Below are positions 17,976 to 22,967 of a stretch of DNA of 64,000 bases, piece by piece. The notes beneath the pieces are model-generated. The model was given only the letters and a program-made list of their open reading frames with translations. It was not told the origin of the DNA and did no database searches. The stretch's first letter is position 1. The number at the start of each line of letters is the position of its first letter. The DNA lies in NCBI GenBank assembly GCA_947629865.1, contig CANRFJ010000006.1, positions 1-64,000 on the forward strand, in the 5' to 3' direction. Both the position numbers and the translations under genes were made by a program. The stretch comes from an uncultured Lachnospiraceae bacterium. Its GTDB lineage: Bacteria > Bacillota > Clostridia > Lachnospirales > Lachnospiraceae.

Positions 17976-18004
17976 ATTATATAACCAAACCAGAGTTATG
18001 ACAA
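17976..18004 (-). promoter_or_regulatory. gdhA promoter
   Basis: Minus strand: -35 TTGTCA (17999-18004), 17-base spacer, -10 TATAAT (17976-17981), 33 bases before the start; one of the strongest promoters in the window. Confidence 0.8.
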
Positions 18005-18007
18005 GAA

Positions 18008-18529
18008 TTATTTTTCCTCCGGAGAATGGGAGGACAGATAACTGTTGGTGTAGCGGGGATCGCCGCTCACGTCTTCTCCGAACCAGGCGGGCGGGGTAAA
18101 CGCAAGTCCCTCTGCCACCGTGGGAAATTCTACTTCGGCCAGATAAAAGCCCTCGTATTCCCCGTGAAAGACGTCCAGTTCAATCCGGTATTTCCCACAG
18201 GGAATCCGGTAGCGCGTCTTCACGATACAGAGGCCGTCCGCCTTCGCTCTCAGGTGCTCATAGGCCTCTCTGTTTAACGGCGCCTCGATCTCCTGACAGA
18301 CATTCAGCGCCTCCTTATCCCTGCGGGCGGCGGAGGGCGGCGCAGCCGTCTCTGCCTTCGTCGGCGTTTCTCCCTCCCTGCTCTTGTAAGTCAGTATATA
18401 GTCGTCGTCGCTTTTGCGGATTCGTATGACCGGCCCTGTGCACAGATAGCACTGTTCCAGCTCGGATTTCTCATACTGCTCCAGATTTTCCGGCAGTTTT
18501 TTTACCAGATACTTTTTCTCTATTTCCAT
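18008..18529 (-). CDS. CYTH-domain protein (inorganic triphosphatase-like)
   Basis: 173 residues starting with the signature MEIEKKYLV (ExExK), followed by IRIRK, a charged strand KSREG, CQEIEAPL, VKTRYRIP, IELDVFHGEY and AEVEFP, the alternating charged strands of the CYTH tunnel. Family members hydrolyse triphosphates such as tripolyphosphate or thiamine triphosphate, or make cAMP; the substrate is open. An Ala/Pro/Thr-rich insert (about residues 55-75) interrupts the barrel. The start at 18529 is chosen because TAGGAGA stands eight bases upstream. It follows the signal peptidase gene by 12 bases, so it is the last gene of that group. Confidence 0.8.
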   Translation of the reverse strand: MEIEKKYLVKKLPENLEQYEKSELEQCYLCTGPVIRIRKSDDDYILTYKSREGETPTKAETAAPPSAARRDKEALNVCQEIEAPLNREAYEHLRAKADGLCIVKTRYRIPCGKYRIELDVFHGEYEGFYLAEVEFPTVAEGLAFTPPAWFGEDVSGDPRYTNSYLSSHSPEEK

Positions 18530-18541
18530 TCGCACCGTCTC

Positions 18542-19525
18542 CTATTGAATCAGGGATATTTTGTCAAAGGGATAAAAGCGGAGCCATGCCTTCCCCAGGA
18601 TTTCATCGCGCTTAATCAATCCCACACCGTCCGTCCGGCTGTCCACGCTGGCGTTGCGGTTATCTCCCAGGACAAAGTATTCGTCCGCCCCCAGCACGAT
18701 ATCCCTGCCGGCCAGACCGGGCTCCTGTATATAGTCCTCCCCGTAGTCCTCCTGAAGCTGTTCTCCGTTGATATATACGCAGCCGCCGCGGATCCGAACC
18801 GTCTCTCCCGGCAGACCGATGATCCGCTTGATATAACTCACCTTTTCTGAAAAGGGAAAAACGATCACGTCAAACCGTTCCGGATCATGCAGGTGATAAC
18901 TTACTTTTTCCACAATCAGCTGGTCGCTGTTTGTCAGGGAGGGGGACATGGAACTCCCCTCCACAGAGGTGTGGTAGGCGACATATTTCGTAATATACAG
19001 CGACAGCAGAAGCGCCGCCACAATGCAGATACAGGTGCTGAGCACCGCCCTCAAAAACGGGTGGCTCTCCCGGTACTCCTCCGCCGTATCATAATTGTCG
19101 TCTCCAACGCCAACCTCCGTGTCTGTCACGTCTGCCACCGGCTCAAAGAAAAACGCGGGCTCCGCATGGGACTGCGAGGACTGTTCCGCCGGCATCGTCC
19201 AGACCGGCTCCTCCTCCCTTTCCTGTTTTTTCTCCGGCTTTTTTTCTTTCTCCGGTTTCTTTTCTTCTACGGCTCTGTCCCCGTCTTTTTCCTCTACCCC
19301 GCCGACTTTCTCTCCCCCGCTTTCCTCCGGCTTCCCGCGGAGCGGCGGCGTATTCTCCGGCGACTCATTTTTCTTTAATATCCGGTCGATTTCCTGAAAA
19401 GTCTCATTTTTAAAATCAAACATACCGGAAATATTTCCCTCCGGAAGCAGGTTGTCATCAACAAGAAAATCTTTTATCTCTTTGCAAACCTGCAGGCTGT
19501 CTTCAATCTTATTTTCCTGTGACAT
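18542..19525 (-). CDS. lepB: Signal peptidase I with long acidic/basic N-terminal extension
   Basis: 327 residues, versus about 180-200 for usual Gram-positive enzymes. Residues 1 to about 155 are a hydrophilic, charged extension (KKPEKEKKPEKKQEREEE) before the single membrane anchor (about 160-180). The catalytic domain follows: Ser192 in GSSMSPSL, Lys233 in YIKRIIGLPGE and the GDNRNASVDSR box, all intact. It should cleave signal peptides of exported proteins at the outer membrane face. The N-terminal part would lie in the cytoplasm. It is 41 bases downstream of ylqF and in one group with a second, apparently inactive paralogue (20493-21119), so this is probably the working enzyme of the pair. 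Confidence 0.9.
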   Translation of the reverse strand: MSQENKIEDSLQVCKEIKDFLVDDNLLPEGNISGMFDFKNETFQEIDRILKKNESPENTPPLRGKPEESGGEKVGGVEEKDGDRAVEEKKPEKEKKPEKKQEREEEPVWTMPAEQSSQSHAEPAFFFEPVADVTDTEVGVGDDNYDTAEEYRESHPFLRAVLSTCICIVAALLLSLYITKYVAYHTSVEGSSMSPSLTNSDQLIVEKVSYHLHDPERFDVIVFPFSEKVSYIKRIIGLPGETVRIRGGCVYINGEQLQEDYGEDYIQEPGLAGRDIVLGADEYFVLGDNRNASVDSRTDGVGLIKRDEILGKAWLRFYPFDKISLIQ

Positions 19526-19566
19526 AGCCCTCTCCTTTCCTGATTATCCGATTTTATCTTTTCTCC

Positions 19567-20406
19567 CTATGGCTTTTCAATCGTAATCCGGCCCAGTCTG
19601 GCATTGCGGAAATCGTCTAAGAGCAGAAAAGCCGCTTTTTCATAGTCCGGCTCATTCCCTTTCCGGACACAGCCGCGGTTCTGTGCTATCTGGCGCAGAA
19701 TCTCTGCGGAATCCGACGTCTCTGCGACCGAATATTTATCGTTCAGGACGCCCGGACAGCTCTCTGTGAGAAATTCAATCAGAATAAGTCCGAGTTCCAC
19801 GCTCTGTACCAGTTCGTCCTTGATTGAGCCGATCATCGCCAGGTGCTGGCCCACGACGGGATCTTCAAATTTGGGCCACAGAATACCAGGCGTGTCAAGC
19901 AGTTCTACCTGACGGTTCAGACGGATCCACTGACGCCCCCTGGTGACTCCGGGGCGGTTGCCGGTCTTTGCGCAGGCGCGGCCGGCAAAACTGTTGATAA
20001 ACGTGGATTTTCCCACATTGGGTATGCCCACGATCATGGCCCGCACCGGCCGGTTTTTGATACCCCTTTTCCGGTCTCTCTCGATTTTGGCGCGGCAGGC
20101 CTGCTGTATCTTTTCGTTGACCTGTTTCAGATTGTTTTTCTTTCTGGCGTCTACTGCCAGCGCCAGATACCCTTTTTTCTCATAAAAGGAAATCCACTGG
20201 CCGGTAATCTCCGAATCCGCCATGTCGCTTTTGTTCAGCAGTAAAATGCGGGATTTGTTTTTTACCATTTCCTCAATGTCCGGATTTTTACTGCTGACGG
20301 GCACGCGCGCGTCCACCAGTTCAATCACCACATCTATAAGCCGCAGATCTTCCTGCATGGCCCGGCGCGCTTTTGTCATATGGCCGGGATACCACTGAAG
20401 ATTCAT
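19567..20406 (-). CDS. ylqF: Ribosome biogenesis GTPase YlqF/RbgA
   Basis: 279 residues, circularly permuted GTPase: the G4 motif NKSD precedes G1 GIPNVGKST and G3 DTPG, as expected. N-terminus MNLQWYPGHMTKARR and the C-terminal NRGCVRKGNEPDYEKAAFLLLDDFRNARLG region are family hallmarks. It acts in late assembly of the 50S subunit. The start at 20406 is chosen for GGAGGA upstream. The order rplS - signal peptidase - ylqF is conserved in Firmicutes. Confidence 0.95.
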   Translation of the reverse strand: MNLQWYPGHMTKARRAMQEDLRLIDVVIELVDARVPVSSKNPDIEEMVKNKSRILLLNKSDMADSEITGQWISFYEKKGYLALAVDARKKNNLKQVNEKIQQACRAKIERDRKRGIKNRPVRAMIVGIPNVGKSTFINSFAGRACAKTGNRPGVTRGRQWIRLNRQVELLDTPGILWPKFEDPVVGQHLAMIGSIKDELVQSVELGLILIEFLTESCPGVLNDKYSVAETSDSAEILRQIAQNRGCVRKGNEPDYEKAAFLLLDDFRNARLGRITIEKP

Positions 20407-20444
20407 TGTCTCCTCCATTCTGCCGCCTGGCGGCTATTTCATAA

Positions 20445-20474
20445 ACGGGGATCTGTGCGGCGCACAAATCCCGT
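20445..20474. other. Hairpin between lepB paralogue and ylqF
   Basis: The arms of an imperfect inverted repeat, ACGGGGATCTGTGC and GCACAAATCCCGT, flank a short GC loop. No T run follows on the minus strand, so it more likely shapes or stabilises the message than ends it. Confidence 0.4.
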
Positions 20475-20492
20475 ATTCTTTCGTCTCTCAGG

Positions 20493-21119
20493 TCACGCCT
20501 CCGGCTGTCCTTCCTCCTCCTTGTTCTTTTCCGGGCCTCCGGGCAGGGAAAGGGGATTCAGGACAAGAATTACTTTTCCGATGATATTTTCTCTTTTCAC
20601 CTTTGTAAAAGTGACGTTTCGGCTGTCGTCCATATCGGCGCGGTTGTCGCTCAGAACAAAGTACTCGTCCTTCGCCAGCGTCAGCTCGCTGTTTGCCTGT
20701 CCGGAAGACGCCATTGGCTCAAACTCATATCTCTCCTTTATCGCCTCCCCGTTCGCATAGACACGGCCCTCTTTGATCTGTATGGTCTCGCCGGGCAGAC
20801 CGACGATTCTCCGGATCAGAATAGAGGAATCGTCCAGGGGCGTCATGTCCGTCTCCTTCTGCTCCGGATAAAAAGCGATAAGCGATCCCCGCTTCGGCTT
20901 GAAGACCGCATAGGACGTCTTGTTGACAATGACGTCCTCTCCGTTATACAGTGTGGTCTCCATGGCGCTGCCTATGACGGCCACCCGTTTCAGTGCAAAA
21001 TGAACAATGATCCAGGCGAGAAGAATCACAAGCACAACCGCCGCCAGAAAGCGCAGCGATTCCTTAATCAGGCGGATCCGACGTTCTTTTTTCTGTTCTT
21101 CCTCGAATCTGAGATTCAT
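20493..21119 (-). CDS. lepB: Signal peptidase I homologue lacking the catalytic Ser/Lys pair
   Basis: 208 residues with the layout of a Gram-positive signal peptidase I: basic N-terminus, one membrane segment (about 23-42), then the S24/S26 fold with boxes in order. The GxSM box reads GSAM (residues 50-53), so alanine stands where the nucleophile serine belongs; the KRxxGLPG box reads RRIVGLPGE, so arginine (103) replaces the general-base lysine; GDN reads SDN. Reading the codons on the minus strand confirms all three (GGC AGC GCC ATG; CGG AGA ATC). The fold and length are otherwise intact and the frame is open, so it is not decayed. It occupies the classic rplS-lepB-ylqF position. A non-catalytic role is inferred. 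Confidence 0.88.
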   Translation of the reverse strand: MNLRFEEEQKKERRIRLIKESLRFLAAVVLVILLAWIIVHFALKRVAVIGSAMETTLYNGEDVIVNKTSYAVFKPKRGSLIAFYPEQKETDMTPLDDSSILIRRIVGLPGETIQIKEGRVYANGEAIKERYEFEPMASSGQANSELTLAKDEYFVLSDNRADMDDSRNVTFTKVKRENIIGKVILVLNPLSLPGGPEKNKEEEGQPEA

Positions 21120-21152
21120 AGTTCCCGGCCCCCTCGTCCTGTTCTGTCAATA

Positions 21153-21179
21153 ACAAAAAGGGGCAAGTACGTTTGCCCC
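21153..21179 (-). terminator. rplS terminator
   Basis: GGGGCAA (21160-21166) and TTGCCCC (21173-21179) pair; on the minus strand TTTTTG follows. It separates rplS from the signal peptidase gene. Confidence 0.85.
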
Positions 21180-21212
21180 GCAAATATTGTCTGCCCCTTC
21201 TGTAAATCCATA

Positions 21213-21560
21213 TTATTTTACCAGTTCTTTTACCTTGGCGGCTTTTCCTACGCGGCCGCGCAGATAATTCAGCTTCGCCCGCCTTACTTTACCAAGGCGT
21301 ACTACTTCTACCTTCTCCACAATCGGAGAGTGAAGCGGCCAGGTCTTTTCCACACCCACGCCGTTGGAAAATTTACGGACAGTAAATGTCTCCCGGTTGC
21401 TGGAGCCCTGACGCTTTAAGACAACACCCTCAAACACCTGTGTTCTCTCTCTCTGTCCCTCTTTTACCCTGGCGTGCACGCGGACGGTGTCGCCCACATG
21501 AAACTGCGGAACCTCTGCCTTGAGCTGTTCATCTTCTAATTTCTTAATGATCTCATTCAT
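21213..21560 (-). CDS. rplS: 50S ribosomal protein L19
   Basis: 115 residues, the normal length. Typical segments: [65 protein letters not shown] and [21 protein letters not shown]19 sits at the 30S-50S interface. The ATG at 21560 has AGGAGGAAC upstream; a longer frame upstream has no such site. A TTGACA overlapping the hisD stop (21656-21661) may be its -35 with a poor -10, so promoter assignment is uncertain. Confidence 0.97.
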
Positions 21561-21656
21561 TGTTGTTCCTCCTGTTCTTTTTGATGTTCTTAATGTATTT
21601 ATTTCCATCAGAGGACCATCTACTTTTTTCACAACATTAAAAATATAACATATATG

Positions 21657-22967
21657 TCAATTCTCGTCAAGAACTTCTTTTCCAAACCGCACGGCAACGG
21701 AATTGGCGTGCGCCGTCAGATGCTCGGACTTTGCAAAGCGGATTATATCTTCGTGCACACTCTCAAGCGCTTCCCTGGAATAAGAAATCACGCTGGATTT
21801 CTTGATAAAATCGTCCACGGAAAGGGGCGAAAAGAATCTGGCCGTGCCATTAGTCGGCAGAATGTGGTTCGGCCCGGCGAAGTAGTCGCCCAGGGGCTCG
21901 CTGCTGTACTCTCCCAAAAAGATAGCGCCGGCGTTCTTTACGCGGCTCATGGTCGCAAATGGATCCGCCGTGAGGATTTCCAGGTGTTCGGAGGCAATCT
22001 CGTTGACTGCGTCCAGAGCGTCCTCCATCGTATCCGCCAGGAGGATATAGCCGTAATTGTCCAGGGATTTCTCTATGATATCCTGTCTGGAAAGGGAATT
22101 GCAGAGGCGTCCGACCTCCGCGGAGACCTCCTCGGCCAGTTTCCGGCTCGTGGTGACAAGAATGGCGGAGGCCATTTCATCATGCTCGGCCTGCGACAGC
22201 AGATCCGCCGCCACATACAGCGGATTTGCAGTCTCATCTGCCAGAACCAGTATCTCGCTGGGCCCGGCGATGGAATCAATGCTGACGTGTCCGTACACCG
22301 CCTTTTTGGCAAGGGCCACAAAAATATTTCCAGGGCCGGTAATCTTATCGACTTTCTGAATGGATTCCGTGCCATAGGCGAGAGCGGCGACTGCCTGGGC
22401 TCCCCCCACCTTGTATATCTCCGTGGCGCCAGCCAGACTGGCGGCGGCCAGCGTAGCCGGATTCACCTTTCCGTCGGCGCCCGGCGGCGTCACCATTACG
22501 ATCCTCTCCACTCCAGCCGTCTTCGCCGGAATAATATTCATCAGCACACTGGAAGGATAGGCGGCTTTTCCTCCGGGCACATAGACGCCCACGCTCGCCA
22601 GCGGTGTGATGCGCTGTCCCAGAAAGATTCCGTCCTCTCCGGTGTGGAACCAGCTGTTGCGCAGCTGCTTTTCGTGAAAATCCCGAATATTCCGGATAGA
22701 TTTTTTCATGACCTCCATCAGAGACGGATCCGTCCGCTCACAGGCCTCCTGTATTTCTTCCGGCGTGACGCGGATAGTGTCCGCTGTGATGACGGCTCCG
22801 TCAAATTTCTGTGTGAGGGCAAAGAGGGCCTCGTCCCCTTTTTGCCTCACCTCATCTAAAATCTCATTGACGGTCTCCTGATACCCGTCATACTGGTTCG
22901 GGCTCCGCCTCAACAGCTTCTCTAATATATTTTTTCTGGATTCTTCTGTCAATGGAATGATCTGCAT
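21657..22967 (-). CDS. hisD: Histidinol dehydrogenase
   Basis: 436 residues, full length. It performs the last two oxidations of histidine synthesis, histidinol to histidine, with NAD+ and zinc. Seen: VYVPGGKAAYPSSVLMN, the signature region VDKITGPGNIFVALAKKAVYG with IDSIAGPSEIL, LLSQAEHDE (zinc ligands), SEHLEI, and GPNHILPT. It ends the group ilvA-hisZ-hisG-hisD and is 16 bases from hisG. Confidence 0.97.
   Translation of the reverse strand: MQIIPLTEESRKNILEKLLRRSPNQYDGYQETVNEILDEVRQKGDEALFALTQKFDGAVITADTIRVTPEEIQEACERTDPSLMEVMKKSIRNIRDFHEKQLRNSWFHTGEDGIFLGQRITPLASVGVYVPGGKAAYPSSVLMNIIPAKTAGVERIVMVTPPGADGKVNPATLAAASLAGATEIYKVGGAQAVAALAYGTESIQKVDKITGPGNIFVALAKKAVYGHVSIDSIAGPSEILVLADETANPLYVAADLLSQAEHDEMASAILVTTSRKLAEEVSAEVGRLCNSLSRQDIIEKSLDNYGYILLADTMEDALDAVNEIASEHLEILTADPFATMSRVKNAGAIFLGEYSSEPLGDYFAGPNHILPTNGTARFFSPLSVDDFIKKSSVISYSREALESVHEDIIRFAKSEHLTAHANSVAVRFGKEVLDEN

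Follow-up and report, generated by a model that had tools for sequence, protein, structure and literature searches.

Why would a bacterium keep a signal peptidase (SPase) I gene after both residues of its Ser/Lys catalytic dyad have gone? The question is raised by gene A, which encodes 208 residues on the minus strand (20493..21119) of a 64,000-nucleotide stretch from an uncultured Lachnospiraceae bacterium (assembly GCA_947629865.1, contig CANRFJ010000006.1, positions 1 to 64,000), hereafter called the window. Judged from its sequence, gene A encodes a pseudo-signal peptidase I: the dyad is lost with fold, membrane anchor and box residues retained, the gene is under purifying selection, and dyad-intact paralogues (B and C) stand alongside. 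An earlier note on this DNA had already read it as a maintained pseudoenzyme. Here we compare gene A with its counterparts in the genus and in the family and weigh what its product may do.

The Active Center of Gene A Is Changed at Four Places

We assigned gene A from its open reading frame (ORF), a match to Pfam family PF10502 and a structure model. Residues 23-186 match PF10502 with 122.3 bits (cut-off 22.9), and the NCBIfam equivalog TIGR02227 (signal peptidase I) accepts the protein with 111.5 bits (cut-off 47). An anchor at about residues 21-44 is followed by an ectodomain at about residues 46-190, the limits of both being set by eye. The predicted structure starts with a helix (residues 3-42) and continues into the SPase β-fold; in a VIA-align comparison its best structural match is SipA, tied with LepB.

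We aligned the protein to SpsB of Staphylococcus aureus with phmmer. Ala52 in the motif GSAM (codon GCC, 20964..20966, minus strand as for all gene A codons) falls on SpsB position 36, the site of the nucleophile Ser, and Arg103 in IRRIVGLPG (codon CGG, 20811..20813) falls on Lys77, the general base. Two further sites are altered. Ser157 in the motif SDN (20649..20651) occupies the place of a Gly in active SPases (Escherichia coli Gly272), and Met163 (20631..20633) that of the Ser holding the Lys (E. coli Ser278). The available text of PMC4049620 describes the roles of Gly272 and Ser278 in the SPase active center. The ORF with its frame and length, Ala52, Arg103 (given as RRIVGLPG) and the exchange of GDN for SDN are all as the earlier note had described them; Met163 is an additional active-center change that it did not contain.

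Like the active SPase I proteins (MEROPS S26A), among them SpsB, LepB and the SP1 and SP2 copies described below, the gene A protein has the Pfam family and family profile, the fold, the N-terminal anchor and topology, the boxes and the locus. Unlike them, it has no nucleophile Ser, no general-base Lys in box D, and no equivalent of either Gly272 or Ser278. It does show the features of a pseudo-signal peptidase of the SpsA or SipA kind, namely an SPase fold without the Ser/Lys dyad and maintenance by selection in a genome that holds dyad-intact paralogues, here B and C.

Gene A Is Maintained in Its Genus

We searched 39 genomes of the genus that holds [Eubacterium] xylanophilum, including the genome of the window, and obtained matches in 38. 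Gene A is present in 34 members (this and all following genus counts of 34 include the window) with at least 44% identity to the window protein, and its frame is open in 34/34; the single TGA contained in the match from G032 marks the end of the gene itself, close to where the query ends. Site 103 is Arg in every one of the 34. Its codons, read in the window and at 33 genus loci, are CGC (11), CGG (10), CGA (6), AGA (6), and CGT (1). The codon has thus drifted and the residue has not, which argues that Arg itself is selected. Sequencing error, the alternative that had been named for both sites, is ruled out: none of the 34 species has Lys at site 103, and two of them are isolates, [Eubacterium] xylanophilum ATCC 35991 (L035; motifs GAAM and FRRI) and Lachnospiraceae bacterium P6B14 (motifs GSSM and IRRI).

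Site 52 is Ala in 22 members, Ser in 10, Thr in one and Val in one. Of the Ala/Arg pair whose conservation at the rplS-ylqF locus had been in question, the Arg thus stands and the Ala does not. The Gly272 equivalent is Ser (24) or Cys (10), and the Ser278 equivalent is Leu (10), Met (9), Thr (7), Gln (3), Ile (2), Ser (2) or Ala (1), so that the Ser is gone in 32/34. By known chemistry, the absence of Ser, the Arg in place of Lys and the side chain at the Gly272 site together make standard Ser/Lys hydrolysis impossible in the 24 members without Ser52, and it is very unlikely in the 10 that keep this residue. Met53, Ala82, Arg104, Asp158, Arg160, Asp165, Ser166 and Arg167 are unchanged in 34/34. 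Conservation is 0.84 for the first nine residues (a cytosolic tail, MNLRFEEE plus a variable ninth residue), 0.78-0.82 for the boxes, and 0.67 on average for the ectodomain. The gene order rplS-A-ylqF-B is found at 31/34 loci, and the remaining three run to a contig end.

Pairwise dN/dS was calculated from pairs with dS below 1.3. The median is 0.036 for gene A (17 pairs), 0.057 for ylqF (17 pairs), 0.007 for rplS (12 pairs) and 0.158 for the whole of gene B with its N-terminal extension included (17 pairs). When only the ectodomains are considered, seven of those pairs yield 0.027-0.069 for A and 0.020-0.083 for B; the dN/dS of whole gene B lies above that of its ectodomain. Gene A is thus under purifying selection. 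Together with the Arg in 34/34 members and the locus order in 31/34, this bears out the proposal that the gene is kept as a pseudoenzyme and is not decaying.

Dyad Loss Recurs in rplS-side SPases of the Lachnospiraceae

We looked for rplS in 150 family genomes, found it in 147, and read 144 regions, one per other genus (L095-L238); the three hits outside this set were the genome of the window, G031, which had already been read, and G066, which ran off its contig. Thirteen regions show no SPase frame between rplS and ylqF, several of them being cut by contig ends (five have rplS alone, five rplS-ylqF and three rplS-ylqF-SP), which leaves 131. The usual order is rplS-SP1-ylqF-SP2. It is found exactly in 76 regions, and 46 show rplS-SP1-ylqF, partly because the stretch read ends there. 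SP1 and SP2 represent two old paralogue groups, the slot having changed only 4 times over 263 sequences.

The dyad of the 131 SP1 copies is Ser/Lys in 116, Ser/Arg in 8, Ala/Arg in 4 and Ala/Lys in 3. The 15 copies with dyad lesions thus carry Lys to Arg 12 times, Ser to Ala 7 times and no other replacement. There are 90 copies located after ylqF, and 89 remain when one that is unreadable at the Lys is set aside; 3/89 depart from the dyad versus 15/131 for SP1 (Fisher p 0.043), a modest excess among genera that are non-independent. The three departures are the second copy of L110 (G093), which is Ser/Arg with ADNR, the second copy of L111 (G147), which is Gly/Glu with GDNR kept, and a poorly aligned third copy of L195 (G101) with neither Ser nor Lys. 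Box E is other than GDNR in 53/130 SP1 copies versus 2/89 post-ylqF copies (p 2e-12). The SP1 variants include GDNV, GDNP, GDNC and GDNI, mostly with Ser/Lys kept, a pattern of broad relaxation or of specificity change.

Base-composition drift is ruled out as the sole cause of the Arg, as Lys persists in other copies within those genomes; further evidence comes from Arg104, unchanged in 131/131 SP1 copies, and from Asp158, Asp165, Ser166 and Arg167 of box E, unchanged in 130/130 readable ones. A residue other than Gly at the Gly272 site is found in 3/12 Arg copies versus 2/118 Lys copies (Fisher p 0.0055), as would be predicted by the steric argument put forward in the SipA paper (available text of PMC4049620). 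We counted changes at the Lys site by parsimony, which alone cannot tell gain from loss, on one FastTree made with the trait columns omitted and carrying no support values: at least 11 are needed for the 12 Arg copies outside the genus plus the genus itself. A PF10502 search covered the 15 lesion genomes outside the genus plus two genus members (G001 and G038), and 17/17 retain one or more copies in which Ser, Lys, Gly and Ser occupy the four sites. Two further loci, L087 and L088, come from two species of genus g74 (G111 and G427) and have an Arg-type SPase-like frame in common. For G111, this frame lies on another contig than rplS, and disarming may therefore extend beyond the rplS slot.

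We also surveyed genomes with a degenerate DNA pattern for RR[IV][IV]GLPG[ED] that admits a few other residues as well. As it misses variants (L157, L178, L188, L220, L226), its counts are lower bounds. The Arg pattern matched at least 23/397 family genomes (at least 19/334 genera, that of the window included) and at least 3/293 genomes of the class, all of them from the same family; outside the family it matched 0/280 class genomes, again a lower bound that variants may escape. The Lys version of the pattern matched 82/293 class genomes and 70/280 outside the family, and thus finds sites there, in a minority of genomes. A mobile origin was also considered and set aside: in a tblastn search of 50,697 phage records, 22 had a match, all below 60% identity, the best among the matches listed having 29.5% identity over 89%.

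Lys to Arg Is Likely the Earliest Change

We built a closer tree from the 34 genus members, with 8 of the 131 SP1 copies added as outside rows and the trait columns again omitted. Among the outside rows, L119 (genus g81) lies closest to the genus; its four sites read Ser, Arg, Gly and Ser, and it thus shows Lys to Arg alone. It joins the genus at 95/82, with a polytomy between L119 and the genus's two halves. The nucleophile site has changed 9 times among 35 rows of this tree, and 8 times within the genus on the larger one. A likely, rather than proven, order of events is that Lys was replaced by Arg first, that Gly272 to Ser/Cys and the loss of Ser278 followed, and that the nucleophile site drifted last.

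The Locus and the Other SPase Copies

The genome of the window contains three SPase I copies, A, B and C. Gene B (18542..19525, minus strand, 327 residues) has an intact dyad, with the motifs GSSM, IKRIIGLPG and GDNR. A charged N-terminal extension of about 150 residues precedes its anchor, and the length of its frame in the genus is 264-411 residues (nine read, window included). Copy C (201 residues) is located on contig 4 and is dyad-intact as well, with GESM, VKRIYGLPG and GDHR instead of GDNR. Between A and B lies an ORF (19567..20418, minus strand) that we take to be ylqF (rbgA), coding for a ribosome-assembly GTPase, and upstream of A there is another (21213..21560, minus strand), presumably rplS for ribosomal protein L19; the order of both is conserved. 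The proposed rplS-lepB-ylqF placement of gene A with an intact SPase downstream agrees with this order, gene B lying beyond ylqF.

A terminator-like hairpin with a T run, identified by consensus match only, is found between rplS and A (21160..21179, minus strand), and nine such hairpins occur in 18000-22000, where 4.5 are expected. As this hairpin parts A from rplS, A may need read-through or a promoter of its own. At the gene A locus only weak repeats were found, two direct pairs and two inverted ones.

A Possible Role in Signal Peptide Docking

We consider it probable that the gene A protein is a non-catalytic, membrane-anchored SPase homologue kept by selection after the loss of Ser and Lys, and that it still docks signal peptides beside the cutting enzymes B and C. 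It would bind the signal peptide C-region in the hydrophobic S1/S3 cleft without cutting and act as a signal peptide receptor or chaperone, and the cleavage chemistry of export would be carried by B and C. Arg103 would contact the P1′ carbonyl or P1 carboxylate in the way that Lys77 does in SpsB. In SpsB-peptide complexes, as described in the available text of PMC4704075, Lys77 bonds the P1′ carbonyl before cleavage and the P1 carboxylate after it, and S1 and S3 are lined by Ile32, Met37 and Val76 and by Tyr30, Leu41 and Val66. An Arg could make both of these bonds though not serving as a base, and this would account for its being held while the nucleophile drifts. By the phmmer alignment the cleft positions correspond to residues 48, 53 and 102 and residues 46, 57 and 82 of gene A. 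Residue 53 is Met in 34/34 members, residue 57 Leu in 33/34, residue 82 Ala in 34/34 and residue 102 Ile or Phe in 34/34, and four of the six positions are hydrophobic or Ala in 34/34. Among the roles that the earlier note had put forward (binding of signal peptides, shielding of substrates, or regulation of the active partner), the conservation of the cleft would make peptide binding the likeliest. It is possible, and we suggest it only tentatively, that the rplS-side slot is a recurrent source of such receptors, made by Lys to Arg and Ser to Ala with the Arg as a clamp, and that the split between holding and cutting was arrived at independently about ten times.

Several observations weigh against this reading or limit it. 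Nine members have Thr at cleft position 46, and nine have it at position 48. For SipA, the best-studied precedent, the available text of PMC4049620 reports that no peptide binding was detected in vitro and that a cleft-blocking mutant had minimal effect; by this precedent a conserved cleft need not be a working surface. The model of gene A has a mean pLDDT of 72, with 58 for residues 51-60, and its confidence is thus middling; 15 of the 17 dN/dS pairs fall within six close species and are hence non-independent. Weak Ser/Arg chemistry would be possible in the 10/34 species that keep Ser52. Lastly, five of the 39 genus genomes have no gene A, and a true loss is possible in two of these, G010 and G029 (completeness 68% and 81%), the former having no match at all and the latter one unclassified match, with neither showing a B-type gene at this locus.

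The main rival to docking, though rather unlikely in our view, is that A serves B as a scaffold or regulator. Here A would be a structural or regulatory subunit that pairs with B via anchor and cytosolic tail and tunes its activity or its place in the membrane, A's own peptide binding being unimportant. The two genes share the cluster rplS-A-ylqF-B wherever the contig extends far enough, the first nine residues of A are as conserved as its catalytic boxes, and B carries a long N-terminal extension in the genus. However, rplS-SP1-ylqF-SP2 is ordinary in the family, also with two dyad-intact copies, so that linkage marks no new partnership. Among the 15 lesion loci outside the genus there are also seven (L116, L171, L178, L188, L220, L226 and L237, the last of which stops at a contig end) where no second SPase adjoins the first in the stretch read.

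It is decidedly improbable that some members still act as proteases, by Ser with Arg or by another nucleophile such as Ser51, with only part of the group being dead. Ser does occur together with Arg in 10/34 genus members and in 8/15 lesion copies elsewhere, and Ser51 is present in 32/34, but 24/34 have no Ser52, the Gly272 equivalent is lost throughout and the Ser278 equivalent in 32/34, and the Ser/Lys copy kept by 17/17 genomes fits an export that does not rest on Ser/Arg copies. In E. xylanophilum (L035) both residues 51 and 52 are Ala, and a hydroxyl is thus unneeded there. We rejected Ser51 as a substitute nucleophile, as it is absent in L035 and in L024 (GNSM). We find it hardly credible, finally, that gene A is a slowly decaying duplicate without function, even though its catalytic residues are gone, rplS-side copies of the family are looser at box E than post-ylqF copies, and G010 and G029 may be true losses. 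Decay is contradicted by the 34/34 open frames down to 44% identity, a dN/dS of about 0.04, the kept locus, the invariant structural boxes and an invariant Arg that is spelt by five codons; and the other three genomes without gene A (G004, G005 and G009) have a contig end beside B.

Relation to Known Pseudo-signal Peptidases

SpsA of S. aureus has its own replacements at the two catalytic sites, and its gene stands in tandem beside spsB. According to the available text of PMC12445088, SpsA is inactive and dispensable, is without two catalytic residues and coexists with the active copy SpsB. Gene A likewise codes for an SPase I homologue that lacks two catalytic residues, and its genome also has an active-type copy. 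Unlike SpsA as described, gene A shows the pattern Lys to Arg/Ser to Ala at rplS-ylqF, and its disarmed state is genus-wide and recurs in about ten further lineages.

In SipA of Streptococcus pyogenes the equivalents of Ser90, Lys145, Gly272 and Ser278 are Asp, Gly, Asn and Arg (available text of PMC4049620). Gene A resembles SipA in that all four sites are replaced (by Ala, Arg, Ser and Met) and in its SPase fold and anchor, with 16% identity in the aligned part; it may also share the conserved peptide cleft. SipA is encoded in a pilus operon, whereas gene A lies between rplS and ylqF, outside any sortase/pilin operon. The residues at the dead dyad of SipA are described, in the same text, as neither conserved between species nor needed; in gene A, by contrast, the Arg is fixed. 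Among the matches listed from the open-licence literature, none was seen to describe Lys-to-Arg SPases or a disarmed Lachnospiraceae SPase. Pseudo-SPases as a kind are already known; what looks new is that the Arg is fixed, that the disarmed state ranges across a genus and that it arose repeatedly at a single gene position.

Our findings call for caution in annotation. Profile-based naming counts gene A as an enzyme though it is very probably unable to cut, and its automatic name, signal peptidase I, is very probably wrong as to function. One gene position of the Lachnospiraceae has repeatedly lost the catalytic dyad, in our sample always through these same two replacements. This provides a natural series for asking what a non-cutting SPase does and why an Arg is wanted at the site of the Lys.
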